64,000 bases of DNA, taken from positions 37,560,429 to 37,624,428 of the forward strand of contig OX485804.1 of assembly GCA_950295325.1 (NCBI GenBank), in the 5' to 3' direction. How positions within the stretch are numbered: the first letter of the stretch is position 1; each line of letters opens with the position of its first letter. The stretch comes from Polytrichum commune. Taxonomy: Eukaryota > Streptophyta > Polytrichopsida > Polytrichales > Polytrichaceae. The notes under the pieces are model-generated. The model saw nothing but the letters and a program-made list of their open reading frames with translations. It was not told the origin of the DNA and made no database searches. The translations under genes and the position numbers were made by a program. Below, in pieces: positions 6,227 through 42,611 of the stretch.

Positions 6227-7704
6227 AATTCCACGGATCCGTGGGATTGCAAGACGTGGGCCCCGCTGCCCATGAATGTAAACATTCTCCTATCCCACGG
6301 ATCCGTGTGATTAATGTTTATCTTGTTGCATGACAATGTGCATACTATTCAATCCCACGGGTCCGTGGGATTGATGAATGTTAGCTCCGATGTAAAAATG
6401 TATGCACATGTATCAATCCCACGGATCCGTGGGATTGATGAATGTTAGCTCCGATGTACAAATGTATGCATATGCATTAATCCCACGGATCCGTGGGATT
6501 GATGCATGTCGGCATCGTTGCTCAACTACGTAAACACTTACCAATCCCACGGATCCGTGGGATTGGTGAATGTTAGCTCCGATGTAAAAATGTATGCACA
6601 TGCATCAATCCCACGGATCCGTGGGATTGGGGAATATCGGCATTGTTGCTCAACAGCGTAAACACTTGCCAATCCCACGGATCCGTGGGATTGGTGAATG
6701 TTAGCTCCGATGTAAAAATGTATGCACATGCATCAATCCCACGGATCCGTGGGATTGGCAAGTGTTTACGCTGTTGAGCAACAATGCCGATATTCCCCAA
6801 TCCCACGGATCCGTGGGATTGATGCATGTCGGCATCGTTGTTCAACTGCGTAAACACTTGCCAATCCCACGGATCCGTGGGATTGGTGAATGTTAGCTCC
6901 GATGTAAAAATGTATGTACATGCATCAATCCCACGGATCCGTGGGATTGGTGAATGTTGGCATCGTTGCTCAACTGCGTAAACACTTGCCAATCCCAAGG
7001 ACCCGTGGGATTGATGAATGTCGGCATCGTTGCTCAACAGCGTAAACACTTGCCAATCCCAAGGATCCGTGGGATTGATGCATGTCGGCATCGTTGCTCA
7101 ACAGCGTAAACACTTGCCAATCCCACGGATCCGTGGGATTGGTGAATGTTAGCTCCGATGTAAAAATTTATGCACATGCATCAATCCCACGGATCCGTGG
7201 GATTAATGCATGTCGGCATCGTTGCTCAACTGCGTAAACACTTGCCAATCCCAAAGATCCGTGGGATTGATGAATGTCGGCATCGTTGCTCAACTGCGTA
7301 AATACTTGCCAATCCCACGGATCCGTGGGATTGGTGAATGTTAGCTCTGATGTAAAAATTTATGCACATGCATCAATCCCACGGATCCGTGGGATTGGTG
7401 AATATCGGCATCGTTGCTCAACTGCGTAAACACTTGCCAATCCCAAGGATCCGTGGGATTGATGAATGTCGGCATCGTTGCTCAACTGCGTAAACACTTG
7501 CCAATCCCACGGATCTGTGGGATTGATGAATGTTAGCTCCGATGTAAAAATATATGCACATGCATCAATCCCACGGATCCGTGGGATTGATGAATGTCGG
7601 TATCGTTGCTTGATGTGGTAGGCAAAATTTAATGTGACGAATCGGGAGTAAATTGTTGTTCCCAACAAAAAATACATTCTCCAATCCCACGGATCTGTGG
7701 GATT
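6227..7704. repeat. Satellite array: 22-bp palindrome at a 64-bp period
   Basis: About 23 copies of a palindrome (core CCCACGGATCCGTGGG, BamHI site at the centre) recur every 64 bp. The 42-bp spacers are mainly of two kinds. Type A contains TGTTAGCTCCGATG and GTATGCACATGCATC; type B contains TGTCGGCATCGTTGCTCAAC and GTAAACACTTGCC. One type-B spacer at about 6,757-6,798 is inverted. The edge copies carry most substitutions, as expected for unequal-exchange satellites. Long open frames rich in NPTDPWDW cross the array only because the repeat lacks stops; they are not credible genes. Confidence 0.9.
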
Positions 7705-9623: not shown

Positions 9624-9785
9624 TTCTTAATATTTCCCATAATTAACCAAACATTTTCTGACTACATCATGTACATGTCTGGGATGTCCAACGATTTCAT
9701 CAACCTCTCATGTATATATCCCATTATGTTTTTTCAATCCCCCTTTTGCAATTGCATTCACATAGCTTTGTCAAATTGTTTCTCA

Positions 9786-12700
9786 ATGTCTTCCGCTGCT
9801 GTCCAAGCTCCACTCTTCGATGCCATCGAACTTGTTTCTCCTGGATCTCTTATCCCTACATGCATACCTACTGGCCCTGATGGAACCGCTGATCTCACTC
9901 CCCAGTGGCTATCCATTCGTTATGGTTTCGATGCTGATAGCTTGTGGTTAGAGACAGATGTTGTCGATCCAGAAACTCGAAATGTCCTTTATTCCTTATA
10001 CGTCCAGCCCGTAACGTTAGAGAATAATGCTCGCGTTTGGAAACTCAAGCCCGGAAGGTATCGCGTCTTTGGCTTGTCGGAGTCCATGAACGCTTCTACA
10101 GTCCTACTCACTCCTCGCAGTTCCTCCACACTGTGCACTGAAGCCCCCTTACTGTCTCGTGTCAAGATCGAACCAGGTCTCCGCGTTAGCATCGATTTGT
10201 CCGATTCTTCTGATGATGAGGGGAGGCCTTCCCATCCATCAATCCGGTCGAGTGCTAAGCGTCCATCTCCCTCCTCTTCTCAAGATTCACGTAGGACTAC
10301 TCCTTTCCTTATACCTTCGCAAACTACTAAACTGATAAACATTCTTCCCTCCCTTCGTTCCCTGGGTAGTATGCCTGGAAGCAAGTCAGTCCTTAAAAAA
10401 CTGAACTATGATTCCATCCGTATTGAGTACGTAGATTTCTTGCCACCGTCGTTCAATGGGGATATAATCTTCATTTTTCCTCCCACCCTTCCATCTGCCG
10501 TCCAGAAGAATGCTAAATGTATGGAAGGTATGGACAAACGTTACGATGGCCATATGTGGACAAAGACTATGACTACTAACATCAGTAACACGTTGGGGTT
10601 GTCATTCCGGTCGTCTAACTGTGTAGGTCATCTTCAATGCCACAATCCCAAATGTGGGTTTCTGCAGTGGCCTAAACGCACATCTGGATTGAACGAGGTC
10701 GAGTTCGAAGGTTCTTCCAAAGATGCCTTCCCTGTTGCAGACGGTCCACCTCCAACTTCAACAATAGTCTGTAAGATCTGTAAAGAACCTCATTTTTGTG
10801 TAGCCTCTTGTGATGCAAAAATCTTCTACGTTTTTGGAGATGATACGCAAGAGCGTGCTTGCGTCCATGTAGGCAACCATAAACATCATGTCAAGGTAGG
10901 AGACTATAGGGGCACGCGGAAGATAATAGACGATTTGATCGAACAACATGTTGAGCGCAACCCGCAAGCTACCATTTCCAAAATAGTCTTGGAAACTAGC
11001 AAGGATGTTTTAGGTAACGTCTTGCTCCGCGAAGAAGACGACCTTCCCACCTTACTTTCTCTGGAACAGCTAGAGCCTATCTTCCAATGTTGCAAGGAGC
11101 TCAACTCCCCTAACTTAAAAAACCGTGTCTACAGTTTCAAGTATCTACGCAGATATGGCGTTCTTGATGGCATCACTAAGCTCAGAGGGCTTAGCAACTG
11201 GGCCTACGTGCAACGAAACATGTTTCCAGGCCAAGGTGACGACTCCGACAAGGTCTTCATATTCAAGATGTCCGAGGTGGGACCTGGCAGCGGTGTTGAC
11301 CTTGTCCGCCGAATGCAACCTAGCGGCGATTTAGAGCACTCATGGATGATGTTTGACCACGTCAAACGAGTTGCCAACTGGACCACCATGGCCTGCCACG
11401 TGTACGACTCCTCTTACCAACGTGTACTCACCATTGCTTGTTGTGATTTCCAGTCTGAGGACAAAGATGCTCAACTCGTGTTCTGGAAGAACCTTAACCA
11501 CGTCATGGGTAGGCATGGAATACACAAGCCACAGTTCAAAGGTTTCATGGCGGATAGTGCTCAAGCCAATTGGAACGTTGTGCGTATCATATACGGATCC
11601 GGAGACCCAAAGATACCCATGGAAGGCCGCGAGCGAACGTGTTATTTCCATTGGGCGCAATCCCTACAAAAACACACCAAACAATACATCGTGCACGAAT
11701 TGCAAGATCAACACAAGAAATTGTGTATGCAGTACAAAGATGCACAGTCTGTGGCAGAGGCTGAAACACGTTATTTGGCAATCAAAGCCTGGTGGACATC
11801 TTCGGGTACCACCTCTGACGCAGGCCTCCACCATTTGAACCATTGGCTTGCGTTTTGGCATTTCCGATACAGGCAGTGGGGTGGTTTCATGGAACTGGTA
11901 AGTATACACTCTTTCATTCAAATTATTCAATTCTTTAAGTTTGCATTTTTTTCTCTGCGTCTAATGTAGTATCTAACAATATTAAATCTTTTGCTTTTAA
12001 ATGGCATGGCCCACCACGACTCCTCCTTGCTCACTTGAGTTTCCGAACATTTCTTAACCAGTTGCCTTCGTACAGGAGAAGAAACTTTCTCCGGATGAAC
12101 TAGCTGAAATGCCCTCTTGCAACCTTGCTGAGACCGTTCACAACAAATGGTTGCAAGCATCCGGCAATAGGGGTGGCGATCTCTACGTAGCAGCCGTCGA
12201 CGATTACGTTAGAGCATTCCTGCAAGTGGTGGGGTACTATCAATACCTCAAAGGTGGAGCGGCAGGCTCTGGACCCTCGAGAGAAGAACTTCGACTTCGG
12301 ACAGCCCAACGCCGAGCTCACCGAACCGGGGATCCGACTACCCTGAACGCAGCCGTCTTGAACATGCCCGGAGCCGAAGATTTCTGTACTCGAGATGCAC
12401 ACCTCGAAGGAGCTGAGGTTTTTGGGTCAAGGAAACGGAAGCCGGATCTTCCCCTTGGCGCTGAAGAAGAAACTCATAGGCCAGACACTGTTAATTTTTC
12501 ACGTCCTCGAGTGGGTCGGAGGGTGACACGTGCTCGTGCTCAAAATTTGAGTACCATCCAGGAGGAAGTTCAAGTGGAAGTGGAACGCCCAACACAGCCC
12601 CCTGCCTCAACTGGCATAGATATTGGACGGGTGACGGCCGTGGAGGAGACTCGTGTGAATGAGAAGCTATGGCACATTGCCCGACTTAATAAGGTTTCTG

Positions 12701-13539
12701 CGAAGGCTTGTTGGGCGCAGATGGCTGTCACTCGAAAGAAGTGTACATCCCGTATCGTCCAAAACGGGAAGAGCACCCCAGCTCCCACATACACTGGCCT
12801 TTGGACCCACCCTCAAAAAGGTAACCAGAAGGTGGTGGAGCAGTTTTTTTTCTGTGCTGACGATATTGAGAGGTGTGTGAAGGGGCATCGTCGACGATGG
12901 ATAGAGCCATTTTCGGATTACGAGGAACGACCTCCCATCCCGTCGGTTTGGCCTGTGAAGATAGGGACCAATCTCACACGTTCCGAGATTGAGGCGTTGG
13001 AGAATGCGGGATTTCAACTTCCCCAAAAGCAAAGCGTTCCTATGAGCCGCACGTTCAACAATGTAGCACTGCCACCGGATCTGTCACAGGTTCCAATGCC
13101 AGATAATGCGGACGTTTATCCAAAAACACGAAAGTCAAAGAACATGCGCCACTCAATCACTTGTGCCAGTTCGAAGCACATGCAGAACATTGATTCCGCT
13201 AGAGCAATGAAGGCAAGTATTCTGAAGGTAGTAATGATACCTCAACCCGGTTTTGGATGCGTTGTAACTTTCCAATCTAAACCAGCTCCCACGGAGTCAG
13301 TTTACCATCTCTCAATCAGTGCCTACCCAGACTGCAATTGCCCGGCATTCAAAGAGACAATGGCTAAGCTGGGTAGACGCGGGTGTCCATTCCGACCTTG
13401 TAAGCATCTTTACTATCTCTACGTACAAGTCTGCAAACTAGAGGCCGACCATGACCTCTTCATGCATGTGCCTACCCTCAGTTTCAAGGAGGTGAAAACA
13501 ATTCTTGAAAGGGGGATCTTAGCCCATGCTACAGTTTAA
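9786..13539 (+). CDS. Mutator-like (MULE) transposase with zinc-binding and SWIM domains, element 1
   Basis: Two exons, 9,786-11,897 and 12,076-13,539, join in phase 0 across a GTAAGT...ACAG intron and give about 1,191 residues. The start MSSAAVQ is chosen because homology with the element-2 copy begins near there. Order of parts: a conserved N-terminal region; an acidic/serine linker (SDSSDDEG); a Cys/His-rich module at about 250-380 (CHNPKC, CKIC, final HxHH) resembling the WRKY-GCM1/FLYWCH zinc fold of MULE transposases; and a DDE core. In the core I place D at about 521 (MMFDHVK), D at about 586 (GFMADSA) with the MULE C/H signature after it (CYFHW), and E at about 723 (CNLAETVHNKW). Near the C-terminus (about 1,123-1,147) is a SWIM motif, CNC...CKH. 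No stop or frameshift interrupts it, so it may still be functional. It would cut and paste DNA in the nucleus. Confidence 0.85.
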
Positions 13540-13953
13540 ATTCAGCAGATTCATTTATTAGTCTCATATATATGTTCTTTTTCATAAACGTGTATGACAC
13601 ACGTCACTCTATGTATTTTCACAATTTAGTGAATACGTATATATAAATATATATTATTTGTTCGCTATGTTAAATTTATGAATCACTTGTACTTGTCCTT
13701 CACTTGTGTTGATCCGTGAACATGTGTCCTTTTAGTTCTATTCAATGAAGTCTTCTATTTCCTCCAAAACTCGGTCACAGATAAATTTATTCCATGTCAA
13801 GCCCATTTTGCACGGTTATGGGTACTGAATTCCACGGTCATAAGACTATAATATTCGAATATTATGAGGAATATACGTTTTCCAAAATAACTTTTCTATT
13901 TTTGGACAAAAGAATTACTAAAAATAATTCCTCTCCGCTCAAAATTCAGAAAA

Positions 13954-13994
13954 TGTACGCTCTGCGCTCTACGCTCATGCCCTAGCAACGCTCC
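13954..13994. repeat. Right terminal inverted repeat of Mutator-like element 1
   Basis: The inverse complement reads GTTGCTAGGGCATGAGCG followed by GAGC-type repeats. This matches the left end of element 2 (GTTGCTAAAGTATGAGCAGG, then GAGC repeats). It therefore marks the right end of element 1, about 420 bp after the transposase stop. No matching left end is present upstream, so the left end has been lost or lies beyond the satellite. Confidence 0.55.
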
Positions 13995-13997
13995 CCT

Positions 13998-16610: not shown

Positions 16611-16639
16611 TTCTTGTTTGTTTGTTTATTCATTTATTA

Positions 16640-17575: not shown

Positions 17576-17629
17576 GTTTAGTCCAGGCCAGGTGTCATTT
17601 TGGAAGTAGTATGGTGTGGTGTGTGCAAA

Positions 17630-19899: not shown

Positions 19900-21340
19900 T
19901 TTGTATGTCCTCTGCGTCACCGTGTTTGGCTAGTATATGTTGTATGAGCCCTTTATATATTATTCCTAATCTTCCGGGGTCATTTAGTGCGTTTCTAAGT
20001 TGTTCACTAATACATCTTAGGTGGGCATTTTTTAATGAGAATGCTTCTAGTCCAAATAGGTCATGTGGTAGTTGGGTTATTACATTTGCTATACATTTGG
20101 GTAGACCACAGATTATTTTTTGGATTCCAATTATTTATTTGTCTAATTTTTTGATGGTTGGTAATGAGTATGGGACTGCGTTGAAGCTATAGGCTATAAC
20201 AGCTCTGATGATGGTAACCACCATGCTTACTTTTTGTTTGATTGTAGCTGGGCATTTTATTAGTTCTTTACATTGGTTTATTATTTTGGCCAACGTGATG
20301 TATGTTTGGAGCTTCCATTTTAATGAGGGTACTAGTTGTATGCCTAAATAGACATAGGGTTAGTTTTGGTGTAAGATAGGTAGTGGTTGGTGCCTGTAGT
20401 TGATGTTTTGGGCTAGGATTTTGGCTTTGAATGTTCCTGGTTTTATTTTTGATTTATTTGGGCATCCTGTGATGGCACATTTTGGCACTCCTAAATCCAT
20501 TCCGGCCCAATCACAGTATTTGTCTAATTTGCTTAGTTGTGTTTGTATTGATTGAAGATTGCTTGTGATAGCAGCCAGATCGTCTGCGTCTGCTGCCGAG
20601 CTGATTGTTAGTTTGGACGTACCAAATGTGTATCCATGTTTTCCTCTTTGTAGCCACCTTAGTAGAGGTTCTAGGAATAGTAGAAAGAGCTATGGGCTGA
20701 GTGTGTGGCCTTGTATTGTGCCTCTTTGTATTAGTATAGGTTTTGTTTTTCCGAAGTGTTCACCGGTGAATATGGTATTGGAGTTTGAATAAATGTTTCC
20801 TATTAGGGTCACCGCATCTTCTGGGTATCCTAAGTCTTTTGTTATTGCTAACAGCCTTGCGTGATCCAGAGAACCGAAGGCACTTTTGAAGTCAATATAT
20901 AATAGGTATATATCTTGGTTTGTAAATCTTGCATCTTCTAGTGCTGCTATGAGGAGTTGGAGTTGTCTGGACGTGCTTCTTTTTGCTCTAAATCCTTCTT
21001 GATTGTCGTGTAGGATTTGGTGTTTTTCCCCGTATGCTGATAATATGAATGTTAGGGTACTTGTACAGAATTTGTATATTGTGTTTGCAAGTGCAATGGG
21101 TCTATGGTTTGATAATTTTGAGGGGTCTCCTTTCTTATATAAGAGTATGGTTAAGCTTATTTTCCATGATGTTGAAATTTGTTTTTGTTTGTGACAGTGG
21201 AAAAAGAATAGGAAGAGTAGTTTGTGGAAGCTTTCGGACATATTCTTAATGATTATATTGGGAATTTTATCGGGGCCTGGTATTATGTTGTTTGCTAGGT
21301 TTTTAACGCAAATGTCGTATGTTTCTCTGTCAAAGTATTC
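19900..21340 (-). pseudogene. LINE reverse transcriptase domain
   Basis: An uninterrupted stretch (21,241-20,690) has SWKISLTILLYKKGDPS, NHRPIALANTIYK, EGFRAKRSTSRQL, YIDFKSAFGSLDH and QRGTIQGHTLSP, the RT fingers and palm motifs. A TAG stop follows directly. The palm continues in the same frame with SAADADDLAAI at about 20,585, the catalytic YxDD-type box, here ADADD. Downstream thumb-like sequence runs to about 19,900 with one or two more stops. The family uses this enzyme to copy its RNA at the nicked chromosome. Confidence 0.85.
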
Positions 21341-21925
21341 ATGTAGTGGAGTTTGTGGGATTCATCTCTTGTCGATGACAAATCCATCTAGGTCATGCCA
21401 GGAGTATTGTCTTACATCGCATGTACAGTATGGTGGGTGTTCCGGTTGGTGATAACATGTTGGTACTGTGGGTCTGTTGCTAATGGATTGTTGTTTGTGA
21501 ATTTCGTTGGCTATGTCTACCGGGTCTGTAAGTATGTTGTTGTGTTCATCTGTAATGCAGTCTTGGTTTTTGAAGACTCTTTTGTTAATTTTCTTTGGAT
21601 TTTTTTATATAATTGTCTGTATTTGGTTATGATTTTTTTTATGCATTCTTGGATGTATTTTGTGGTAATTTTTCGGGAGTATATATTTGCAGTTTTGGCT
21701 CTTTGGGCTAGTGTTTTTATCCATTCTTGTTGGCTAGGTTCTTTATTTGGGGGGTGGAATAACGACTTGAGTATGATTACGTAGTTCTTCTATTATTGGG
21801 TATGTTGACCAGTTTGGTGAGTTCTTTATGCGGTAGATTGCTTTCCTAATTAAATGGTAGGTGGAGAGATGTTTTTTCCATTTTGTTTGTAGTTTTCTTG
21901 GTAGAAAGCCTCTTTGTTGTGATGT

Positions 21926-22690
21926 TCAGTTTGTGAGGTCTGGGAGGGGTGGTGCGCTACACGTGTCTTGGATTTTTTCATAAATTTGTTGAATTAGGTG
22001 GTCTAACTTAGTGCAAGATGTTTGCCATTGTACAGTTGTTATTTGGTTGTTATTTAATATGTTTGTGAGTTCGTTTATTTGGAGTGCGTTTTCTTCGAAA
22101 AATTTTGTTTTGAATATTTCGATATTTGCTTGTGGAATGGGGTTTAGTAACCTTGGTGGTTTGTTTGTGGTTGGTGGCATACAACGGGCTAGTAGTGTAT
22201 TTGGTGGTATATGTAGTGTTACTGGGGAGTGGTCTGAGTTTAGATTATGGTCATTATTTGTGGTTGATGAGTATAGAGCATTATTGGGTGTTTTAATGTA
22301 ATATCCATCTATTAAGCTAGTTTGGTTGTAGTCTTGACTCCCTTGTCTAGAGTATGAGCTATTCGTGGGGATATATGTGAGTTGGAGGTTGTTCGTAAAT
22401 GTATGCCATTCTATATCTTCAACTTGTGGTGGTGTTGTTACGTATTCATTTTGTCGTCCAATTAGGGCTATATCTCTGTTAAAGTCTCTGCATAGGATGA
22501 GTGTGTGGTTTGGGTGGTTAGTGTTTTGTTGTGTGATGTTTTGTTGTATTATTGGTATAAGTCGTTTGTCCTCTACGTGTGATGGCATGTAGATGTGTAT
22601 TATTAACCATGGTTATAGGGGTTGGTTGTTTATTTTTATTATTTGTAAATATGGTGATATTGCAGCTGGAGTGGGGATTTTCGTGATGTT
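21926..22690 (-). pseudogene. LINE AP-type endonuclease domain
   Basis: The frame from 22,588 contains CRDFNRD, TSLIDGYYI and NSDHSPVTLHI, the catalytic DFN, D and SDH signatures of the exonuclease-endonuclease-phosphatase fold used by LINEs to nick target DNA. Homology continues upstream past a stop at about 22,615 (PAAISPYLQIIKINN) to the element's 5' edge at 22,690. The first part of the domain, including its metal-binding N and E motifs, is therefore absent. The enzyme would have made the first-strand nick for target-primed reverse transcription. Confidence 0.8.
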
Positions 22691-22705
22691 ACCAAATCTA
22701 TTGGA

Positions 22706-24607
22706 CCAATTATAAGATAACCATTTACAAAATTTGAGCACACAACGGGAATACCGGCAATGAAATATCCAGCACACTAGTAGACAAAGAAGCCCAAAAA
22801 GACCCCCCAAAAAAATCCTCATCCCATTAATACACATTGCCCAAACCATCTCATATTGGCTAGCCAAGAACCCAATTGCAACACGTGACGGGGCTATTTG
22901 CAACTTACACACATTCATTTAGAAAACACATCAAGGACATATAACTACCCTAGCAAAAAATAAATTGAATATGTTGACAATTGGTTATCAAACAACCAAA
23001 TTAATTAATCACGAACTATCTAACTACTTTTGAAAAACCCTGAGCATGTCAAATGCCCAAATAACCCACGTGTTCAAATTTAGATATGCACAATACATGG
23101 GAAACCATTGAAAAAATATCTCATGGCTTGTCCACTCCAAACCCTTTGACACATTGTGCCCACTTAACAATTGAGACACGTAGCCACACCTACTATCCAA
23201 TTGCGAAAACCAACACCTAAAAGGTGTACATGTAGCATGCCACAACAGAGTTGTCCATCTAATAAGCCAACAAACATGCATGATTTTGCACTCACAAATG
23301 TCCAAACATCAACAAGCAACCACCTTACTGACACAATCTTAAAATGGCTACTACAATGTGTATGCCCCGATAAAGGCCCCGTTAGATTCCTAGAAAAACA
23401 AATTATTAAATACGACAGGGAAAACAACTTGGAGAACATGGCCACACAAACCCCCAACACTTACAAATGGACGGGAAATGCAGATATGGATAAAGAACTT
23501 TCGAACGAATTCTGGGAAAACCCGGAAATCACGGATAAACAAAAATCATGCCTCATCAAATTCATAACAGGAACCTATATGGGCAATGCTCGAAAACAAT
23601 TGTTCTTCGGTAGACAATCATATCCCTCTATTACATGCCCCATTTGCAACTCACATGAACCGGACACGTGGTTACATGTACTACTTACGTGTAAACAACA
23701 ACATATACATTCACTTCACGTCAGAAGACACAACAAAGTTGTATGGGAAATTAGGAAATTACTAATCTCTTCTGAAAAATCTCGATGCTATATTCTCATG
23801 AACGCTTGCACCTTTAATAATACATCCCAGGAAAACACCGTTCCCAAATGGCTACTCCCTTGCACATGCGGTACACAAAGATGCCATTGTAACTCCAGAT
23901 TTAGACCCGACATCCTTTGTGTTAAAGGATTCCCGTACCAAAACGACCCCCCCACAGACATGGACCCCAACCTCACCATACAATTCATCGAATTCACATA
24001 CTGTAATGATAGATTCTCTCCAGAAACAATCGAAGCAAAACATAACAAATATAAACCATTAATCGATAGTATTGTTGCTAGAGGATGGAAAGTTGACCCC
24101 CTTATTATAATCACCGCAGGCGCTAGAGCCACTACACACATTCCTTCAATGAAATCACTCGAAAATCAATTTAATATACCTATGCCTATCATTAAAAATA
24201 CTTTTTAAAACATCAATACTATCGCTATTAAATATGCCATGTCTATCCTCCTACACAAAAGAAGAATAGAAAACCACCAACCCCTACCCCAAACACTAGA
24301 CCCCCCATAGACAAAGCCATAAAACTTTGGTAATTAAGCCACTCTACTCCATCCACTAACAAATGTAATAAAGACTTGGCGACCCAAACCATGCCAACAA
24401 CCCCCCCCCCCCCTAAAACTAACCATTTTGGTTCTTGTTGCTAGTAACTGGTGACTATAGTGTCTACTCTCGAAAGGGAGGAGTAGATCTTTACCTCCAT
24501 ACCTTTGTCCTGTGGGCATCGGATTGGAGGAGGATCGAACAGACACTTCACTCACGTCGGTCTCCTCCGGAGACCGAAGTTTTTTTTTTTTTTTTTTTTT
24601 TTTTCTT
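22706..24607 (+). pseudogene. LINE copy B: RNase H end, zinc knuckle, restriction-like endonuclease, 3' tail
   Basis: Plus strand. Homology starts in RNase H (IYKI-stop-AHNGNTGNEISSTLVDKEAQ) at the edge of the younger LINE's duplication. A long frame at 23,171-24,208 follows, with CPICNSHEPDTWLHVLLTC, CTCGTQRCHCNSRFRPDILC, IQFIEFTYCNDRF and the conserved tail, a single stop, and LLHKRRIENHQPLP. The 3' end shows the family tail (GACTATAGTGTCTACTCTCG ... ACTTCACTCACGTCGG) then a run of about 24 T and CTTCTTC. It belongs to the same subfamily as 14,719-16,107 and lies head-to-head with it. Confidence 0.85.
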
Positions 24608-29639: not shown

Positions 29640-30556
29640 TGCTAGTTGTTGTCCTACTTCCAACTATCTAGCATTATCAGTTGGCTATTAGTTCTTTACT
29701 GCATTAATGATAATATGATTGATGGTGTTGCCTTATGTCATCCCCCCAAGGTAGTAATTTCCATAATAACTTACCAATTTCACAAGTACAACACTGACTG
29801 CATTTGGAATGTGGACGAGAGTGGTGCTCAAACCGGAAAGAATGGAGGAGTTAGGGCATTGGCATCAAAAGAACACATCAAGTACATTGACAAGTGTTTG
29901 ATGAACGCCAACATCTTTCCATGTTTTCTTGCATCAATGCCAATGGAGATTGCATCCCAAATTTTTACATATTCAAGGGCAAACAATGTCAGGGGCACTA
30001 CATCAAAGGATGTGAGACTGGAGCATGCACAGTGATGCAACCAAGTGCATGAATAATGACATTTTTGTTTGATACGTGTTTGGACCACTTCATTGTATGT
30101 GTTAAAAAAAAAGTGGAAACATGTCTTAAAGTTTGGACAACCAATACCTTTTGGTTATGAATGGTCATGCAAGTCATGTCATGGTGATGTAGTGAACAAG
30201 GCAAAGGCAATTGGCCTTGATGTCATCACCTTGCCTTCTCACTCATGACATGCCTTACAACCTCTTGATATTTATTGCTTCAAGAACTTCAAGTCTACTT
30301 TTCGTTCATGTTGTGATTCTTGGACATCGACTCATAGAGGAGTTTGAGCCAATAAGAAAGATCTTGCAAATGCGATGGCAAGAAGGTTGAAGAATGCATT
30401 CACATCCGATAACATAAATGAAGGTTTTTAGGCTATGGGAATGTGGCCATTGGACAAAGATGCAATGGTCAACAAGATGGCATCTTTGGAGGTATTTGTA
30501 CATAATGAGAGGGAAGTTGATGTGCGGATTGAGGAGGTGGAGGACATCACTATATG
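29640..30556 (+). pseudogene. pogo/Tc1-like (DDE_1) transposase remnant
   Basis: A 129-codon frame includes IWNVDESGAQTG, the first-Asp motif of the DDE_1 family (IxNxDExG). After stops and shifts come MNGHASHVMVM (family: DGHxSH, with the second Asp here changed to Asn), IGLDVITLPSHS and ALQPLDIYCFKNFKSTF (family: LPPHxSHxLQPLDV). The end is MGMWPLDKDAMVNKM up to TGA at 30,554-30,556. The loss of the catalytic Asp, the stops and the frameshifts show long decay. Mutator-like element 2 inserted 10 bp beyond the stop. Confidence 0.8.
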
Positions 30557-33500
30557 AAATAATGAAGTGAATTACCAGGGTTGCTAAAGTATGAGCAGGG
30601 AGCAATGAGCGTTGAGCGTTGAGCATTGAGAAATATCAAAAAAATGTGTGAAAAAAAATATTTTTTTACTATAAGTTTCATATGTGAGTGGTTGAAAAGA
30701 AAAACCTATGGCTATAAATGCTCTCAAAGACGATGAATGGAGATGAATGGAGTTGGATGAATTGTTTGTAGTTATTTTTATGGATGAAAATGAATTTGGA
30801 TGATTGTTGAAATGAAACTAAAAAAATCAATTATTTAGGATCAATTACCAAGTACTTTAGATCCAAGGTTTAAGGTGTTTTTTTGGAAACTAAGGATCTG
30901 TACATGGTGTTACGAAACAATTTGAGTGAATACACCATTTTCAATTAAATTTTATAATTACTTTTAAGCAATACTGAGATTCATCAAATTTATTTTTATG
31001 CTAACACAAAGTCAACGATTTTCTCATTATTAGTTGAGTCTAGGTGGACAAACAAACAACCCCTCTTAAAAACCTTATCATTTACGAGTTTTAGTTACAT
31101 GTTTCCATGTAAAAGAAATGACATGTTGTTAATTAAACAAAATTGATTCAATCTAGAAAAATTAATAAAATTTAATCTCTAAAATGAAGATGTCTTCTAA
31201 AGTGGATATCCTTTAAAATTAAAAATATGTTTACCGCCACCTCAAAGATCACAAAACTACACAATAACTCAAGAATAAATTGAGATGCAAGAATGTAGTG
31301 GCCCTTGTAGTCTCACTACATCACATTAAAAAATCAACAAACAATAAGAGTGTTTACAAAAAGATCAATTTGATCCAATACCACACATGCTAGAAGAATG
31401 ATCACTAGCTTCACTACTATCACTGTTCATAAGCCCTAGTGTCTCCACATTGGCTTCTAGATCTAAAAACTTCTTGACAACAACATTGTATGAACGTCGT
31501 TTGGTAACAAGAATGGGTGATGAAGCCTCTGCCATAACTTTCGCTTGAGTTTCGATATAACATGGCAAACTCTTGGGACTAGGAGAAGGCGAGAGCACAA
31601 AATGTTGGAGAGAGTTCCCTCTACAATATACATTGAATAAACAGTTAGAAACTTGGAATAAATTTTCAAGTCTTACACAATAAAATAAAACAAAGACATG
31701 AATAAACAACAACCAACTTACTTACAACAACGTCTCTTTCGAGGCCTTGTGGAAGGCCTCACAATGTCCTCATCATCTGAACCATTGTCCTCTACTAGTA
31801 GAGGACACTTGGTTTGGGGGTTGGCAATAGAAGTCGGAGGAGTATTCAAAGGTTCAAGAAGGGCTTTGAAAATATCACTATCGCTCTCCAAGGCCAACAA
31901 ATGACGTCCAATGTTGCGGGTTGCATGTATAGAGGGCCCTATTCATTGAATGCAAGACAATTAGTTCAAGCAAATATATTACATACAATGTATGAAAAAA
32001 AATGGATTAGGTAATGAGAACTAATGAAAATTACCTGTAGATGCAAAACAATCTAGTACCACATCGCCGGGTTTTGAAAATGCCTCAATCAATAGTTGTA
32101 CAAATAATGGATCTTTCTCACGGGCACCTCTCCATGGAAGAACCCCATTCATTAGCTGAGTTTGTAGAGAGGTGAAATTGTGGAGTAGGTCAATTTCTTC
32201 AAGGTTGATGCTTGCATTGCTAAGTTGTTGGTTTACGTAGATAGAAAACTTAGACACTACAAATGTTTCCTCCCATTTTCTGCGTACAAAAAGAAAAATC
32301 CGAAAGCGTTGTGACTGTCAAGGATAAACAAGTATGTCAATTAGTATTTGAGAAGCAAAATGTTGGTACGAGTGGATTCAAACATCAATATACCAAAAAC
32401 ATAATTTGGTAGATAGAAAAAACTTGCTATAGTTCTTATTTACAATTTTTTTTTGGGATGCATCAAAATTCACAAATGAAAAAACTCAATAGAACTTACC
32501 CAACATTTAGATTTCTTGTAACTAGAAAGCTTCAACTCATTCACACCCATCCAGGAATCCAGTAGACGAAAGCCATATGTATCAGCACGCTCAAGTGTGA
32601 ATTCCTTCACCTTTCCGTTTTCTGGGTGGAACAACAAAATTGCTCCATCATCATGAACATACTCTAAAGCAAACTCAAAGATGGGTTCAATTATCTCTTC
32701 TTCATTCAACAAGTTCCAAACAGGAACATGAGAAGGTGATTCCGAGACATTGGGGACTGGTAGTCCGTCTGGGATATCAGCAACAATCAAGTCAAAACAT
32801 GGACCAGAGATCACGTTGCCTCCAAGAGTTCGTACCCGCTCCCCTCCAACCTTGACAATAGAAAATGCACATTTTTAGATTTAAGAATAACTTGCAATGC
32901 CATGTAACTTTATAACTTAATGTGAAATGAAAGAAAAACATTAGAATAAGACTATAGATGATAAATTTTATTTTTTTTGCAAAATTAAGCATTTCATCCC
33001 ATGCTTGTGCATTTTTCCCAGTCTTCTCTTTGACACTAAGCATTGTAGAAATTGATGATGGTAGAATTAGAGCTTGAGGCTCAATACCATGTCTATTGGG
33101 CTGAATTGTTGACCTAGCAATATACTATGATGAATCAAATGCATTTGGAGGAATAGATAGAAGAGTTGGAGGACAATGAGAGCGAGCTGTATCAATCACT
33201 TCAAAAGGAGTGGGAGACACAAGTGAAGGAGGAGGTGCAATAATAGATGCTGGCATGGACGAAGAAGGCGTGTCATCTTTTGTGGTAGTATTTGTCGCCA
33301 TCTTCTTTATAAATTTTTTCTCCCTTGGCTTCCTCCCCTTCTTCACTGGTGCAACCTCTTCAATTTCCACCTCTTCCTTTAAAAACTCCTCTTGTGTGGT
33401 TGTTTTAGGATAGTCTTTAGCAACCTCTTTCTCAGGTCCCTCAAGTGCCAGGGCAAAACTCCTTGGACACTCTAGGTACCAAGGACAAGCTTGGAGTTCT

Positions 33501-34484
33501 TGGGCAGAAAACCCCCGTTGTTGAGTGAAGGTGAACATACATCCCGTCAAAGACGTGTCAAGCCAACCCATGAAAAGCTTGGGCATAAATTTTCTTTCAA
33601 TTCCACCTTTTGGAATCAACTCTCGTTTGAAATATATGCAATCACATAGAAAATGTTTGATTATTGCAATGACAAATATGCATATTCAATTATTCTATGG
33701 ATTTGTAAAGCAAGTCAAATGTAAATAAATAAATATAATTGAACAAAAAGATATACCTGTAGAGTAGCCTCTTTGTTGCAACATTTGTACCCTCTTGATC
33801 TTTGAAAGCTTTAGACCTCGAATATGAAGAATATTTTTTGAACAACCACCAAAAAGCATGATCCCATAACACAATGCGCCATGTCTCCACATAATTTCCA
33901 ATTGTGTCTAACTCATAGTTGGCACTCCAATGGACCTCAATATTCTCAGACTTTATGATGCTCATGAATTCTGCTTTGGCTGCTTCTTCCAACTTCAAAG
34001 AACCCGAGATATATTAGAATGATTTTTTAGAAAGCAAAGCATATCATAAAACAAACACCCATACAATATTATTCTCCACAGTTATATACATGTCGTCCAC
34101 AATGGCAATTTCATTTTTTTATAATTTCCAATTGCATTTTTTGGAGTTTAAAGGCGAATAATATACAAATGGAAAGGTATTACAAAATGTAAGTATTAAA
34201 TATGTTGATGAAAAAATTGTTGATAATATACCTCAGCCCAAAAATCAGCTTTAGAGAGCCATGTCTCTAAGGTCAATGTGTTGAAACCAGGGGGTGGAAA
34301 TCGAAAGCCATCTCTAGAAGTTTCACTGGAATTCCACCACCGAAGAAAACGAACCTTGTGGTGTGGTTGGACCACACATGTAGGTATCCTTTGAAGTTTC
34401 TCCAATGACATCTCGGGTTTCTCATTGGTGCTGTAATGCAAGTTAATCTGAAAATTTGAAGGTGGACATTATAGTCAAAACTAA

Positions 34485-34570
34485 AGACAAAACCAAAACC
34501 AAAACCAAAACCAAAACCAAAGTCAAAATCAAAATCAAAATCAAAATCAAAATCAAAACCAAAACAAAAA
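34485..34570. repeat. (ACCAAA)n / (ATCAAA)n simple repeat in an intron
   Basis: About fourteen hexamers, first ACCAAA then ATCAAA, lie in the intron between exons 5 and 6 of the methyltransferase gene. They give a spurious alternating FGFDFD reading frame. Confidence 0.9.
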
Positions 34571-35894
34571 ATAAACATAGAAATTATTCATTTGCAAGTA
34601 AATAAAATTACATACCTCTTCTAGAAATCCAACGCCATTATTTGGATTTGCAACAGCTGATTGCTTATCAAACTCTGTTCGGAAACCTTTAGTAGCTGTA
34701 GTGGCAGCTTGGGTCATGACATCATGAACTCCCTTTGAAGTGCGGTCTTTTGGTTGTGTTTTTTCATAATACGCTTGTACTGCTGCTTCTGAAATAGTAG
34801 CAATCTCTTGCTGCAGACAAAAATAAAATTAGTAAATCAATGTAAAATGAATTGTACAAATGACAACAATGAAATGAATTCTTTTTGCAAGCACATGACT
34901 TACCCGGTGAAGGAATTGTATGAAAACTTTTGACGTCAATGGATACCAAGCACCTGGTAGTTTTCTATTTTCGCATTTCTTGTAATCATCATCGTTTAGA
35001 AGATCCTTGAACTCTTCTAATTTTAAGTTGCCATAGTTACTCATCCTATGTAATTGCTGAGCCAAGTTGCTCTTAACATGAGAATGCTCAGTAGACCTAT
35101 AAAACCAATGAAAATAGAATACAAGATAAATAAATTGATAAACATAGAAAATAACAACTAATCAAAATAAAAAAAATAGTGAAGAATGAAAAATAATGTG
35201 GACCAGATTTTGAAACTCACCAATTGATGTCGTTCATAGCCTCCAATAGCATGCATGTGCGACCTTCAGATACCAAAAGCATACAATCAACTTGGAAATG
35301 CCATTTGCGATCATAACGATGCATCTTATGAATGTAGGCATACCAAGCTGCCAATCTATGGTTACCATCCCATACGAAGAACATGTGGTTAGACAAATGC
35401 GAAAGAAAAGGCTGAGACTTCAACCAAGATTCAAATTCATCATTTTCTTGTATCCAACATTCATCCCATGTCTCCACGATCTCAGGAGTCACCAACTTGC
35501 AAACTCCCTTGTCATTTGTTGTTGATACATAAAGTATACAATCACCTGGTCGATATCCACGAGCAAAGTCTGCCTCCAATCGTTTCACTTGACTTTGAAG
35601 AAGGGGACGCACCAATGGAAGGCCAATCATCCTGCATAAAGGAATATGAAAATGAGATGAAGGCCCTCCACCATTAAAAAACATGCTGTTGATGATGACA
35701 TTGGAGTTGAATTTTTGACCAATTCGTACATCGTGCTCCACCTCTTCTATTGTTTTCCCTTCAAAAGTGGGATTATCACTTTGATTTTGAATGGTGGTAG
35801 AAGTCTATAATGAACAGTACATTAAAAACAAAGTGTAGTCAATGAAATGAAAAGTAAAACTTGTAGCATATGAATAACACAGAGAACAATTGAA

Positions 35895-36400
35895 ATATGA
35901 GGCCTCGTCAACGAGGCTATATTCTCCAGCACAAACCAGCAAAACCAGTAAAAACTAGCAAAACCAACGTAAACCAGTAAAATCAACATAAACTAGCATC
36001 AACTAGCATCAACCAGCATAAACCAACAAAAACCAACACAAACCAACACACCCTAAACCCTAAACCAACACAAACCAAAAAAAAAAATGAGACAAGATGC
36101 ATTTTGAACCTATACCATTCCAATAAAACAGAAAATGATCCAAAATTGACGCCTCGTCAACAAGCCCAAGTTTCAGAATGTAAACATGAAACCCCAAAAA
36201 AAAATTTAAAAATGTCCCTTCAAACTTTTGTTATTCCAATAAAACCCCAAAGAATTGAAATTTCAGGCCTCGTCAACGAGGCCATGCTCTTCAACACAAA
36301 GCAACAACAAAGATAAAATGAGAAAAGATGCATTTTGAACTTATACCATTCCAATGAAACAGAAAATGACCCAAAATTGACGCCTTGTCAACGAGCCTAA
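35895..36400. repeat. Hairpin repeats and minisatellite in intron 2 of the methyltransferase gene
   Basis: Four copies of a near-perfect hairpin GGCCTCGTCAACGAGGCC occur at about 35,902, 36,150, 36,266 and 36,381. The last three are spaced about 115 bp apart and embedded in a tandem duplication with ATTCCAATRAAAC. Between the first two lies an AACCAGCAAA-type minisatellite (35,935-36,070) containing CCCTAAACCCTAAA, the plant telomere motif. The intron's exon-2 side also holds a TATGCTAGGGTTTGCAAGG-like short repeat near 36,690. Confidence 0.75.
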
Positions 36401-37955
36401 GTTTCAGAGTGTAAGCATGAAATCCTAAAAAATTAAAAAAATGTGCCCTTAAATTTTTGCTATTCCAATGAAACAACTGACATTTGAGGCCTGACATTTG
36501 ACATTCAAAGCAGCAATAAACCTCAATGTTAGTTTCGGTGGCTCCATTCTCCAAATCATGTGCGCCCTCGATGTATTCGGGAACAACCTCCCCACCATCG
36601 CCACGCTCATGTCCACCCTCCCCATCATCGTCGCGTTCCTATCTATCCTTCCCCATTACAGCGTTTCCCTAGCATACCTTAGCATACCCTTGCAAACCCT
36701 AGCATACCATCTAAAGTTGGGCTTCGGTGTCTAAAAATAAAAAATAAAAAATATGGTAGATTTGGGCCAAAAGAATCTTTTAGATATATCCTATCATTTT
36801 AAATATTATAAAGCCATTTTTTCCCAAGCATACATTCTAACCTCACAAACCACCTTGATTTTTTTCAAATTTTTTGGATTCAATGCGGATTTTACAAAAA
36901 TTGGCAAAGTCCTCTGAAAATAATCGGACAAGATTTCGCCCAAAAATCTTATGATTTTGAAGATTTCTCTCACGATTCTAAGATGTTTTTTTTCATTTTT
37001 GGGCCGTAAAACATTCACAACTTCTCCGTTTTTTGCATGCAATATACCGTTGGAATCGTCTTCTCGACCTCCACGACATGGGATTTGGTGTCAAATTTAC
37101 CTCCAAGAAGAAAAAAAACATGTACACATAAATTTAAATCGTTCCAATCTAATGGTTATAGTTTTGACAACAAATACATGAACTTACCACTTCTGTGCTT
37201 GTGGAAGATATGGCATTCGTAGCTGGACTAGATTCGCCTCCGTCTTCTTCAATATCATTCATACAATCGACCTCGGCAATATCCATTGCTTCATTGTTTT
37301 GTATCGAGTTCTCCCCACATTAAAAAAATCCAACTTCATGATTCTCATAGGACAAGGTCCGAATAATGCTACTAATCTCATCACCATTGGCCTTCTGCAA
37401 GCGTCTAACCATCCTTAATTTTTCTAACTGTTTCTTACTAGAAAATAGAAGACCAGCCTTACATCTCTTCCTATGAAAACCCTTTGGCATCCCTGCAACT
37501 GGAAACACTACATGAAAAATAATTCTACTATTTGGTTACAACTATGCAATCTCTTCAATAAATAACGCTCATTTAGTGTAATGAATGTATCATCATCCGA
37601 TTATTTATGGCTTCTTAGAAATGAATTATATCTATTTACATACATATAAACGGTCATTTGTAAAAGAGACATACGGCTTCTCGTCTAGAAATGATATTTA
37701 CTTACCTTAATATAAACGTTCATTTATAAAGGAGGCGCTCCCAAAAATTCATAATTCAAAACATTCTATAATAGTCACTAAAATCATATGAAATCTTTGT
37801 ATGTCAGATGTATCAATTCAAATTTTGAATCACTACGAGCTAACACCACGCAACGGAAATATTTGGTTGTCACTACTTTATAGTCATTTCCTTTCTATTA
37901 CAACAAACTTTCATATAACCCTTTCATACAATGACATTGAACGTGACTTTGTAGG

Positions 37956-40900
37956 TTGTACGCACATGCAAGTATGGATATGGCATTTGTTCGCGGTGAC
38001 GCCTCTAGTATTCCAATTTTTTTTCCCTGCAGTGATAATGGTATGGCATGGGTATCTACATTGATTCTCAATATAAGATTCAATTTGGATTTGTCGTCCT
38101 TATGGGTGGAGGAGGAGTTTTTTTATTCAGAAGGAGTTCAAGTCGTATCTACAGTCATGTTGCTAAAGATCGAGACTGACTCAGGATGCGGTTGGAAGCT
38201 TCCTCCAAGCAAGTACCATGTTTTGGTACTCCAAGAATTACTAGGTGAATATCGACAAAAATTCTCACACCTGGGTCTGCAACCTCCACTGTTCAGATGC
38301 ATTGGGGAACTCGTGTGAAGGTAGAGTCTCCAAGTCATAGTCATATTGATCTTACTGAGTCTTCCGATGATGATGTAGTTGTTGTCAATGATGTGAATCG
38401 CAAGCTATCTCCTATACATGAGAAATGTGAAGACATTTTTCTAAGTGTACATAACATTGACCATCATAGCACATTGAATCCTTCTGTTCATAAAAAAACA
38501 TCTAAATTTGTGAGCATCTTGGAATGCCTTAGAGATATGCAAAGTCGTCCACATGCACGGAATGAATTGAAATTTATAAACCTCAATACAATCCGTTGTG
38601 ACGCAGTCCGTCACCTTCCTCAATCATTTAATGGAGATGTGTTTTTTGAGTTACCTCCTCTTCCTTCTTCGGCATCCCCTTCTAGAAGTGGAGCCAACTC
38701 GATTTCATCGTCTTCTGTAGGTCGACAGCTAGAAGGCATGGATCGTAAGTTTGATAGCCACAATTGGACACACACACACACCACAAACATTGCAAATGAT
38801 TTCGGCCTAAAGTTCCGCTATTCATTGTGTGTGGGCCATTTGGTTTGCAAGAACACAACTTGCCCTAGACTACGGCGAAGTGGCAACAAAAATGAGACAG
38901 AATGGGAGGGATCGTCACCTGTTGTCTTTGATGTGGGACAACAATCTCCTGTGAAGTCTAATCTCGTATGTCGGATTTGTAAAGAAGTCCCATCCTGCAT
39001 AGCTCCATGCCCTTGCCGCATGTATAGGGTCTTGAACTCAATAGGTCTTCCAAGAGCTTTTATCCATGTTGGTATTCACGATCATCCAGTGGGTAAAGGG
39101 ATTTGTCGTGATTATGTTCATCGAGCAACATCTTTGATTAGTCGAGAGGTATCAAAGACACCAACTGCAACAAATTCCGCCATTCGACTTGCTGCTAGCA
39201 AGGAATTTCTTGCATTTGAATTGTTTGGAGAGGAAGGACTACACAACGACCGAAAGCCCCTCTGCGGAGAGGCCCTTGAGGCTGTTATGGGCAAATTCCG
39301 GATACTCAGTTCACCTACTATTCGAAATACCATCTCTAGTTTCCGTCACAATACAAACAGGGGACCCATTGACAACATTATCTCGTTGAAAATGAAAAGT
39401 ACATATTCCTTTATTCAAGATAGTGTGTTCCCAGGCCAAGGTAAGGATAAAGTTTACCTTTTCAAGATGTCTGAGGAAGGACCGGGAAGCGGGGTGGATT
39501 TGGTAAGGCGAATGTAATCTGGTGGAGACTTGCAGAACTCTTGGTGCATGTTCGATCATGTTAAGAGGGTGAAAGGATGGACGTCAATGGCTGCCTATGT
39601 CTATGACCCTGAGTTTTGTCAAGTCCAAACTATTTGTGTTTGCGACATGATGAGTGAGGATGCTCAGTCACAACAACAAATGTGGAGATCCCTCAATTCC
39701 GTCATGGCGCGCCATGGGATTTCATCTCCAAACTTCAAGGGTTTCATGGCTGACAATGCAATGGCCAATTGGCATGCTGTTCGTGTGGTGTATGGAAGTG
39801 GCAACAAGCAAGAGCCAATGCAAGATCGAGAGCGCTCTTGTCTACTTCATTGGACAACTTCGCTAAATAGACATACAGAGAAACTCATTCGACTAGAGTT
39901 CCAAGAAACTCACAAGAGGCTTTGCAAACAATACAAGGATGCAAAATCAATGGCAGAAGCAGAAAAAAGATACCTTGGAATCAAGGGTTGGTGGCTTTCT
40001 TCAAGAGCTGCATCAGAGGATTCTTTGCGAGAACTAGATGACTGGCTGGGTTTTTGGCACTTTTGATACCGGCAGTGGGGTGGAGTTTTAGAATTGGTAA
40101 GTTATATACCTACTTGAATTTGAATTTTCCTTCTTTATTGCTCAACTGTTATTCATGGACAAGTTGCTTTAGTGTCCCTAACGTATGTGGTTTTGTTTAA
40201 TTGTTTTCCTTCACATCTATAATATTTACACAAGTTTGGGTTCAACATCCACTAGTATTATTATGGAAACATGATTTTGGAAACCAATGAAACCTTACTT
40301 TATCATTCAAAATCATTCTTATTGTTGCAGAACCTCAATTTAGAAGAGCTAGCCGAGATGCCTTCATGCAATTTGGCAGAGACAGTTCACAACAAGTGGT
40401 TGCAAATGTCTGGGAAGAGGGGAACCTGCTTGTACGTCGCCACAACCGATGACATGATGCGGGCTATTCAACAATCGACTAATTATTGGGCATACCTCCA
40501 AGGGTATGCATCTGGCACTGGTCCCCCTTGGATGAACTTCACCTTCGAGCTGCAAGACGAACTAGAAATCCAACAAAATTTGCTGAGGTTGTCGCCAAAC
40601 TTCCAGATGCTCACCTATTAGCCACGCGGGTTCCCCACTTGGAAGGTGAAGAAATATTTGGCTCCTCAAAGCGCAAACTGAATTTGCCTCCTGGATCAGA
40701 CGGCGACTCTCATCGCCACGATACAGTGAATTTTTTTGCACCTAGAGTTCAGACTCGGTCAGTCAAAGCACGCACAGAAGGAGATGCATCGACAACAATA
40801 CCAACACAAGAAGGTGAACCAAGCACATTATGTCGACACGCTACCAAAATACTTGAAGCAAACTGCAACCCTTCACTATGGCACATTGCTAGGTGTAAAA

Positions 40901-41739
40901 AAGAAGGGAAGACTTGTCACGGAGTTCAAATCGGGATGAAGAAGAGATGCGGGGCCAAGATAAACAAGTCAAGCAAGAGTGGAACGGTAGCACCTACCTA
41001 CAACGGCCGCATGACAGAATATGGAACCAAGCCCATTATCAACTTTGATTTCTGGTTTTGTGCAGATGACCTATTGCGTTGTGTTGGAGGCTCTAAGGTT
41101 AAGTGGGTTCACGATTGGCCTCCTCTTCCAAATGTCTGGCCTATTGCATGTGGGACACATCTCATAAAATCAGAGATTTTTTTTCTACATGAAGCAGGAT
41201 TTCAATTGCAAACTGAAGATGTAGGCGAACCAACACTCCACCTCTTCAATGAAGACGATACAAGAAAAAATGTGTCATTCCTACACTCAAAGCAACTAGA
41301 TAGTGATGTCCAACCATCTGACGGTGATATGCACCCCACAAAGCGATTGGGAAGAACCATTCGGCGTAATCCTAATGCGCCCACAGTTGACCACCGCAAC
41401 AAATGGGAGACAACATGGAACTTGAACGCAGTCGTTGATTCTGTTGTCGTTATTCCATACCCTGGCTATGGTAGAGTGTTAACTTTGATCTCTGGTATCT
41501 TTCCCAACCAAAAGGTCTATCGAATCACAATTTCGGATTTTCCTGCTTGTACTTGCGAAGACTTTATCACCATGAGTACGGCTGCACTTGGTAGTAGGAA
41601 ATCTTGGGTAAACTGCAAGCATTTATATTATGTCTTTAGGTTTATTTGCAAGGCAAACTTAGAGAACGACAAATATATACATGCACCAAGTCTGAGTTTT
41701 GATGAAGTGAAGTTACTTCTTGTAGGTAGCAATCTATAA
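37956..41739 (+). pseudogene. Mutator-like transposase, decayed paralogue (element 2)
   Basis: It is homologous throughout to the 9,786-13,539 transposase, with the same phase-0 intron (40,097-40,330) at the same place. Conserved: RVKVE...DLTESSDDD, the Cys/His module (CRICKE, final HVGIHDHPV), MFDHVKR, GFMADNA, SCLLHW, CNLAETVHNKW and a SWIM motif CTCED...CKH near 41,550-41,620. Lesions: a frame change near 38,300, TAA at 39,515-39,517 (after LVRRM), TGA at 40,064-40,066 (WHF-stop-YRQWGG), and a one-base shift in a C-run near 40,530. All catalytic D, D and E positions remain. It is divergent from the methyltransferase gene and probably shared a bidirectional promoter with it at 37,491-37,955. 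Confidence 0.85.
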
Positions 41740-42611
41740 GATTTTTTGTATTTGTCTTGTAGTAGATAGTGAAACCATTTATGTGCAGAGGTGGATATAG
41801 AATTTTCAATTGGAATAGATGCCACATACCTTACATTCTAATTGCTTTATGCTGGAAATTGTTTATGGCACTTCAAGGACCACTCAAATCATTTGTAAAA
41901 TTGTAAACATGAAATAAAGATATAAGAAAAGGCTGAATTTAGCCTCACAATATTGTAGGATGAAATGTTACTATGCTACAAATGAATCTTGAGAGAGCTC
42001 CTCAGTTCTAAGAAATACTTAACCACATCCAAACAACATTGTAAAATTGTTTGTTACATATCTCCAAATGAACTTTCAAGGTATTCTTTGGTTCCAAAAC
42101 ACATTAAACCAACCTCTGGGATAGTTAACAATGTTTTTGCAGTCAATAAAGCAAATATTTTTTGTAAATGAATTTTTTAAATAAGCAAAAAAAATCATTC
42201 ATTTTTTCAAGACATCTTTAGCAATGTCCAAAGAAAGTTCTTTTTGGATGAATGGTGAATGAATGATGAATGGTGAATGAATGATGAATGAATGATATGG
42301 ATGAATTTCATTTGTTTATCAAATCTCTCGTGGTGAAATCTTCTTGTTGTGGGAGATGTTGGTTTTTCAATAATTTTGATTTATACAACAATTGATTGAA
42401 AATTTTATTATTTTTAATATAATTTTGTAATTTTTGTAATTTTGTAATTTTTGACATTACTATATTTAGGCTTGAAAATATTCTTTATTACTTTAACGTG
42501 TCTATTTTAAATATAAATCATTGCACTAAGCGCTCAAAACTAGTTGCTCATTGCTCAACGCTCAATGCTCATTGCTCCCCGCTCACACTCTAGCACCGTT
42601 GAGTGAATTAC

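Follow-up and report, generated by a model that had tools for sequence, protein, structure and literature searches.

The window analysed here is a stretch of 64,000 nucleotides from Polytrichum commune (C2:37560429-37624428), and comparisons were extended to a genome of 408 Mb, whose seven large contigs measure 42-78 Mb. The window contains a two-gene transposon of ~12 kb (30576-42601) with inverted ends, a target duplication and a divergent gene pair. The target-site duplication, AGTGAATTAC, was read in the flanks at 30566..30575 (left copy) and 42602..42611 (right copy). Terminal inverted repeats occupy 30576..30633 on the + strand, with several 7-bp NNTGAGC units seen by eye, and 42544..42601 on the - strand, as obtained from the arm comparison and the printed ends; the arms at 30582-30633 and 42544-42595 were 88% complementary over 52 nt. 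Both features had been described in an original prediction made from this sequence, but the duplication was 10 bp long and not 9 bp. The two genes are arranged head-to-head, as had been proposed. The transposase gene is on the + strand (37974..41739) with one intron (about 40097-40330), as deduced from reading frames, and has a SWIM-like CxC..CxH pattern at its C terminus, recognised by eye. The cargo gene on the - strand (31365..37490) combines an exon with a ParB-like motif and exons of a beta-class methyltransferase. The proposed structure of 12 exons, running from 37490 to 31365, proved to be a plausible model, with splice sites mostly common to two sister copies, B (C1:67.81 Mb) and C (C1:28.23 Mb). 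Within the model, exon E3 (35221..35804) encodes the ParB-like motif DGNHRLAAW, E9 (32500..32850) the methyltransferase motif IV region, with ADIPDGLP where DPPY is expected, E10 (32035..32278) motif I (DCFASTG) and E11 (31722..31938) the continuation of the S-adenosylmethionine (SAM)-binding region, all on the - strand. The intron between E2 and E3 carries a repeat array with units of ~115 bp (35857..36475), including four palindrome-like units.

The window copy is decayed and both genes are broken, which the original prediction had missed. In-frame stops interrupt the transposase at 39515-39517 and 40064-40066, and the frame shifts at about 38.25 and 40.53 kb. In the cargo gene, E8 contains an in-frame stop (33125..33127, - strand) and its splice donor is lost, and a further stop lies in E1 near 37321; in the exon model the junctions E7/E8 and E9/E10 are out of phase. 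An exon was possibly missed at E9/E10, because the phase break there is also present in copies B and C. The splice-site comparison further revealed that copy B is without the E1 donor, and that E1 and E2, as well as the beginning of E3, are missing from the fetched part of copy C. Taken as a whole, the observation that started the analysis was partly confirmed.

The methyltransferase fold of the cargo is clear from sequence comparison. A single window cargo exon reached 20.5 bits with the Pfam profile PF01555 (N6_N4_Mtase), which is under the cut-off, and the joined exons E9+E10+E11 reached 27.9 bits versus a cut-off of 26.7. Three relatives scored 29.0-33.1 bits, one of them (locus L058) with 32.4 bits over profile positions 1-216 of 221. 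A profile (A2) of seven family sequences, with pieces joined by hand, recovered from the PDB the beta-class adenine methyltransferase 5hfj with an E value of 7.8e-10 and CcrM with an E value of 2.1e-4; in the alignment to 5hfj, the family's D-I-P-E fell on DPPY. Motif IV precedes motif I in the cargo, as in beta-class N6/N4 amino-methyltransferases. Thus the assignment to the beta class held with both PF01555 and profile A2, and the proposed acquisition of a prokaryotic-type methyltransferase is supported as far as the fold by PF01555 and 5hfj. The catalytic motif, judged from its residues, is degenerate in most members. Motif IV was compared in 23 sequences, a sample with several close relatives and with 15 loci chosen for likeness to the window exon. 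The canonical (D/N/S)PP(Y/F/W) was not found in the form DPPY in any of the 23 cargo sequences; D or N and P were kept, and the fourth residue was E in 15, D in four, Y in two, G in one and K in one, hence an aromatic residue (DIPY) in two. A methyltransferase relative with a single frame of 577 amino acids (aa) was observed at L058 (C1:9661001-9664000) and L059 (C4:44110501-44113500), with DIPYGMP as motif IV in one and DIPDGMP in the other. At four loci (L043, L044, L045 and L047), the methyltransferase part of the cargo is interrupted by few introns, with open frames of 290-512 aa; L045 has GCATTGTCGGATCCGACAATGC. Scans of IMG/VR with the ParB-exon and methyltransferase profiles revealed no relative, and tblastn of L058 against a phage collection gave no match.

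The second domain was recognised by its motif. G-N-H-R and A-W were invariant in all nine aligned ParB-exon sequences. Among these nine proteins, Pfam did not match PF02195 (ParB_N), and the only family found in more than one was DUF1015 (two of nine, best E 0.25). ParB was not recovered by PHROGs on the nine members, nor by a PDB search with the profile. Across the genome, matches to PF02195 were confined to the small contigs C12 and C23 and included no transposon ParB exon. Alignment with hhalign to bacterial or phage ParB was weak and located on the ParB motif (Prob 1.6, E 0.032); with deeper input, the best alignment lay off the motif and was insignificant. A single-sequence structure model of the exon had a predicted local distance difference test score (pLDDT) of 35, too low to be of use. 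The ParB-type assignment is thus retained in the form 'ParB-like by motif', since the profile searches gave no significant ParB match: the DGNHRLAAW-type motif is conserved, whereas Pfam, PHROGs, PDB and hhalign did not match ParB. Profile searching of the joined exons, which the prediction had proposed, accordingly recovered N6_N4_Mtase and not ParB-N.

The transposon belongs to a large family. First-look searches yielded 1185 candidates for the ParB exon, 1533 for the transposase core and 1026 for the methyltransferase exon, and 150 of each list were scored. All 150 ParB places were significant (weakest E 6.1e-38), 128 of them without stops. A listed transposase was located within 25 kb of 41 of the 150 ParB places, in 34 cases divergent (including those of the window copy, B and C), in seven tandem and in none convergent. 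Random placement gave a mean of 3.0 pairs with a maximum of 8 (200 trials, approximate lengths for four contigs). The number of 41 pairs is a floor, as both lists end at 150 places. The ratio of nonsynonymous to synonymous substitution rates (dN/dS) had a median of 0.12 for the ParB exon in 63 pairs and of 0.142 for the methyltransferase exon in 23 pairs, the pairs not being independent in either set; between the window copy, B and C, pairwise values for the ParB exon were 0.39-0.71. As judged from these ratios, the cargo is under purifying selection. Copy B has its own 10-bp duplication CTTCCTGTGT and stops in its transposase; copy C is regarded as split by a nested insertion, because its transposase lies ~22 kb away. 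Two elements, X (C2:54.22-54.24 Mb) and Y (C2:56.49-56.51 Mb), represent a young subfamily of ~16.2 kb and are 99.1-99.2% identical over two main blocks; the cargo exons E3 to E10 are collinear in X. Nine of the 150 scored ParB places are identical in score (152.2 bits) and in range (25-194), suggesting a recent burst. The prediction had asked whether full copies always carry both genes, and for the large copies this was the case: both were present or located in B, C, X, Y and a second element of the window. A short derivative on contig C5 (L011+L012, C5:20236501-20256000, about 16726-16881) has the left end joined to the central region, with neither gene in the matching part, and is probably a non-autonomous form. 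On contig C4, ParB and transposase places appeared crowded at about 41-58 Mb, a visual impression from the listed matches.

Most sampled ParB loci of the family carry, between the divergent genes or in cargo introns, repeated palindromes of 14-30 bp that the original prediction does not mention; these usually have a CGNNNNCG core, and their arms are specific to the subfamily. The survey covered the 30 best-scoring of the 150 ParB loci (~3.5 kb each), among which are the window copy, B and C, and 15 control segments; the latter were taken from parts of the window that belong to neither element, from the sequence to its left and from one C5 region. At least two palindromes sharing an arm were present in 25 of 30 ParB loci versus none of the controls, and a palindrome centred on CGNNNNCG (CGN4CG) in 29 of 30 versus none. 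Element X had 28 palindromes (arms of at least 8) in the 4.8 kb between its genes, versus 0.25 in shuffles, and two in its other 11.4 kb. Its main palindrome, GAGGCCTCGGATCCGAGGCCTC, occurred 1903 times in exact genome-wide counts, CCCTCTCGGNNCCGAGAGGG 2064 times and AATCCCACGGATCCGTGGGATT 84 times, while the reversed patterns did not occur (0 each). In the window array, four units are of the GCCTCGTCAACGAGGC type, two of them with perfect arms (35902-35917 and 36266-36283). Seven copies of GGTGCCGTTAACGGCACC lie beside copy C (L009+L010, C1:28231501-28251500) at 13194-15033, with a second transposase downstream of them on the - strand (10981 to 7229); this stretch is probably an element nested in copy C. 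At three loci examined by position, palindromes were situated on both sides of E3, hence also in introns. Conservation was measured in five site groups of 7 to 112 sites, leaving out of the scoring the six core letters that the search had fixed. Mean major-base frequencies were 0.89-0.95 at the remaining 16 of the 22 central positions, versus 0.47-0.68 in the flanks; for the smallest group (7 sites) the value in the adjacent 20 bp was 0.76. In four groups, changes on one arm numbered 51, 84, 5 and 10, changes on both arms 2, 16, 0 and 0 when unlike and 0, 1, 0 and 0 when alike. Since arm changes were rarely compensatory, the sequence and not the pairing is preserved. A hairpin or other structural role of the palindromes was rejected, compensatory changes being nearly absent. 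Arm classes coincided largely with protein groups: the mean identity of the ParB exon was 74-97% within a five-letter arm class and 33-60% between classes, with 70% for one class pair.

The second element of the window is of the same kind, is less decayed than the window copy and has its own palindrome class. A repeat array of ~20 units of 64 bp (6349..7608) contains 15 palindromes at 6349-7592 with arms of 11-15, mostly CAATCCCACGGATCCGTGGGATTG. The transposase on the + strand (9624..13539; exons 9624-11897 and 12076-13539) has no in-frame stops, and the right terminal inverted repeat is at 13942..13992 on the - strand. The left end is outside the window at about -4908, in the 10 kb fetched to the left, so that the element measures ~18.9 kb, with a 9-bp duplication CCCTCAAAG read by eye. 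Its cargo is on the - strand, with the ParB exon at about -791 to -249 and methyltransferase exons at -3.7 to -2.8 kb, counted from base 1.

The transposase had been named a MULE (Mutator-like element) transposase. Pfam, at E values up to 10, returned no family for the two window transposases (for the first, the part up to the intron), and SWIM did not match the window exon or the second transposase. Genome-wide, the MULE profile PF10551 matched at 142 places, the best 43 of which were compared and showed no overlap with the 150 listed transposase places. By eye, the CxC..CxH pattern is visible near the C terminus of both window transposases. MULEs have target duplications of 8-11 bp, a range that includes the 10 bp of the window element, and often a SWIM finger (PMC6446971). 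Duplications were 10 bp in the window copy and copy B; read by eye, that of the second window element has 9 bp and those of X and Y ~9-10 bp. Terminal inverted repeats measured 52 nt in the window element, 42 nt in X and 41 nt in the second element. The ends of the window element, B, X, Y and the second element present repeated short GAGC units (by eye). The element is therefore called MULE-like, not MULE: PF10551 remained unmatched despite target duplication and inverted ends. Of the earlier designation, the MULE domain could not be recovered, while the 9-10-bp duplications and the inverted ends fit a Mutator-like transposon, and the CxC..CxH pattern seen by eye may do so too.

For the function of the cargo, we give an even chance to the reading that this transposon family pairs its transposase with a divergent cargo that recognises the family's own palindromes and keeps the element transcribable. 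The cargo would be an accessory protein with two parts, a ParB-like domain marked by GNHR and a fold of the beta-class amino-methyltransferases. Its binding sites would be the iterated palindromes with the CGNNNNCG core and arms typical of the subfamily, which lie in the 5' region of the cargo gene itself and, for some subfamilies, also in later introns. Binding, and perhaps DNA modification at these sites, may keep the own element transcribable despite host silencing. The palindromes as cognate sites of the cargo protein are suggested by sequence comparison; an anti-silencing or self-marking outcome lies one step further and would follow the analogy to VANC, the accessory protein of Arabidopsis VANDAL elements. 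The earlier idea of a self-marking or self-protecting transposon gains from the subfamily-specific palindrome arrays and loses from the mostly degenerate motif IV; the earlier interpretation as a whole was partly supported. Several results weigh against the proposed recognition. ParB homology of the cargo is putative. The marking step may not occur, because motif IV is mostly degenerate. A recurrent palindrome was missing in five of the 30 ParB loci, and the methyltransferase loci, 11 scanned of 17 fetched with 1.5-3 kb each, had no arrays, with up to two isolated palindromes per locus. In the window element itself, palindromes with arms of at least 8 were not above shuffles (three versus a mean of 1.4 and a maximum of 3), the four units being seen only as repeats, and the part of copy C that was fetched, with the array-matching stretch outside it, had no window-type unit. 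The window copy also breaks the association of arms and proteins: it has the X-class arm CCTCG, yet its ParB exon is 43-46% identical to the listed X-class members. Finally, an association of arm class and protein group is expected from common descent as well.

This last point is central to an explanation in which the palindromes are host-factor or promoter elements, e.g., of a bidirectional promoter, that were spread by unequal exchange. Their position between divergent genes and within repeat arrays would suit it, and descent alone would explain the co-segregation of arms and proteins. A shared host factor does not require arms that vary by group around a mostly constant CGNNNNCG core, however, and the palindrome is preserved while the repeat flanks diverge; we consider this explanation unlikely. 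Equally improbable in our view are transposase binding sites or other cis-elements of transposition, with an unrelated role of the cargo. Transposase and palindromes do co-occur in the elements read, and the repeated GAGC units of the ends, noted by eye, indicate that sequence arrays are habitual in the family, but the palindrome arrays lie mid-element or in cargo introns, away from the ends, where the repeat is another, short one. A catalytically active amino-methyltransferase that would write N6-methyladenine (6mA) or N4-methylcytosine (4mC) on its own element is doubtful, though somewhat less so. The beta-class fold, the conserved SAM-binding region, the retained D or N and P of motif IV, purifying selection and the aromatic residue kept in two of 23 sequences point to activity; the replacement of this residue by E, D, G or K in the other 21 argues against it. 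Loss of the motif IV aromatic residue is expected to impair stacking of the target base. Slightly less probable than the host-factor explanation is a system similar to ParB-parS, in which a ParB-fold protein would load on the palindromes and coat the element while the methyltransferase-derived domain marks it; hundreds of copies would then fall into mutually specific groups, comparable to plasmid incompatibility groups. A one-off gene capture by the window element is extremely improbable. The short C5 derivative with its left end, central region and neither gene in the matching part would agree with it, but both genes were read or located in the second window element as well as in B, C, X and Y, and many further divergent pairs exist; one-off capture was rejected on the 150 of 150 significant ParB places and the 34 divergent pairs.

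Other content of the window was inspected as well. Near the left end of the window element, at 29646-30035, a frame with the motif NVDESGAQTGKNGG resembles a pogo/Tc1-like transposase, and the window element may be nested in another transposon. Several LINE-like (long interspersed nuclear element) frames with reverse-transcriptase and RNase H-like segments were seen by eye at 15688-24208, and a 416-aa open frame at 61800-63050 was unmatched by Pfam at E values up to 1. Outside the window, four loci on contigs C10, C12 and C23 (L065-L068) hold ParB_N or PF01555 genes, including a ParB_N + PF01555 fusion on C12; these small contigs are probably bacterial contamination or belong to associated bacteria.

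The combination of a ParB-like and a methyltransferase domain in a transposon is of a known kind, already published for algal transposons. In the brown-alga Sola1 transposon, a gene opposite to the transposase is predicted to encode ParB-like and 4mC/6mA methyltransferase domains and was proposed to bind and modify its own element (PMC12477816). The moss cargo shares the strand opposite the transposase and the ParB-like and methyltransferase prediction; palindrome arrays are unmentioned in the available part of the algal report, and the likeness is one by description, not by sequence (PMC12477816). Apart from this report, the open-licence titles and abstracts searched described neither a plant or MULE form nor paired palindrome arrays. 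Phage proteins also fuse a ParB-CTPase fold with a PF01555 methyltransferase, and transposons are unmentioned in the accessible part of that study (PMC12704722). Such phage and bacterial fusions resemble the cargo in combining a ParB-type domain with PF01555 (PMC12704722). The bacterial-type fusion on contig C12 has a ParB_N match, DPPY and a 501-aa open frame, whereas the transposon cargo has neither a ParB_N match nor DPPY and is split by introns. To our knowledge, no target site of transposon-borne ParB-methyltransferase proteins has been known before. If the proposed recognition is true, these transposons would recognise and mark themselves in a new way, and the methyltransferase fold may be kept for binding, not catalysis. 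One genome offers many copies, several protein groups and different candidate sites, so that the specificity of protein and site is directly testable. Fungal DNA transposons with TET/JBP genes likewise have a DNA-modification enzyme near the transposase, although an unrelated one (PMC12730594). The closest functional parallel may be VANC of the Arabidopsis VANDAL MULEs, which removes silencing (PMC5735166, PMC10398659). The motifs to which VANC proteins bind are repeated in tandem, upstream and in introns of the MULEs that encode these proteins, and the proteins co-evolve with them (PMC5735166). Both systems would consist of an accessory protein of a DNA transposon and family-specific tandem motifs, motif and protein diversifying together (PMC5735166, PMC10398659), but the VANC motifs named there are short and non-palindromic, YAGTATTAY (PMC5735166). 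The likeness would therefore be in the mode of action only. VANC is not known to have a ParB or a methyltransferase fold. The moss transposons thus suggest that sequence-specific self-recognition of transposons, known from VANC, may have arisen with an unrelated protein too.

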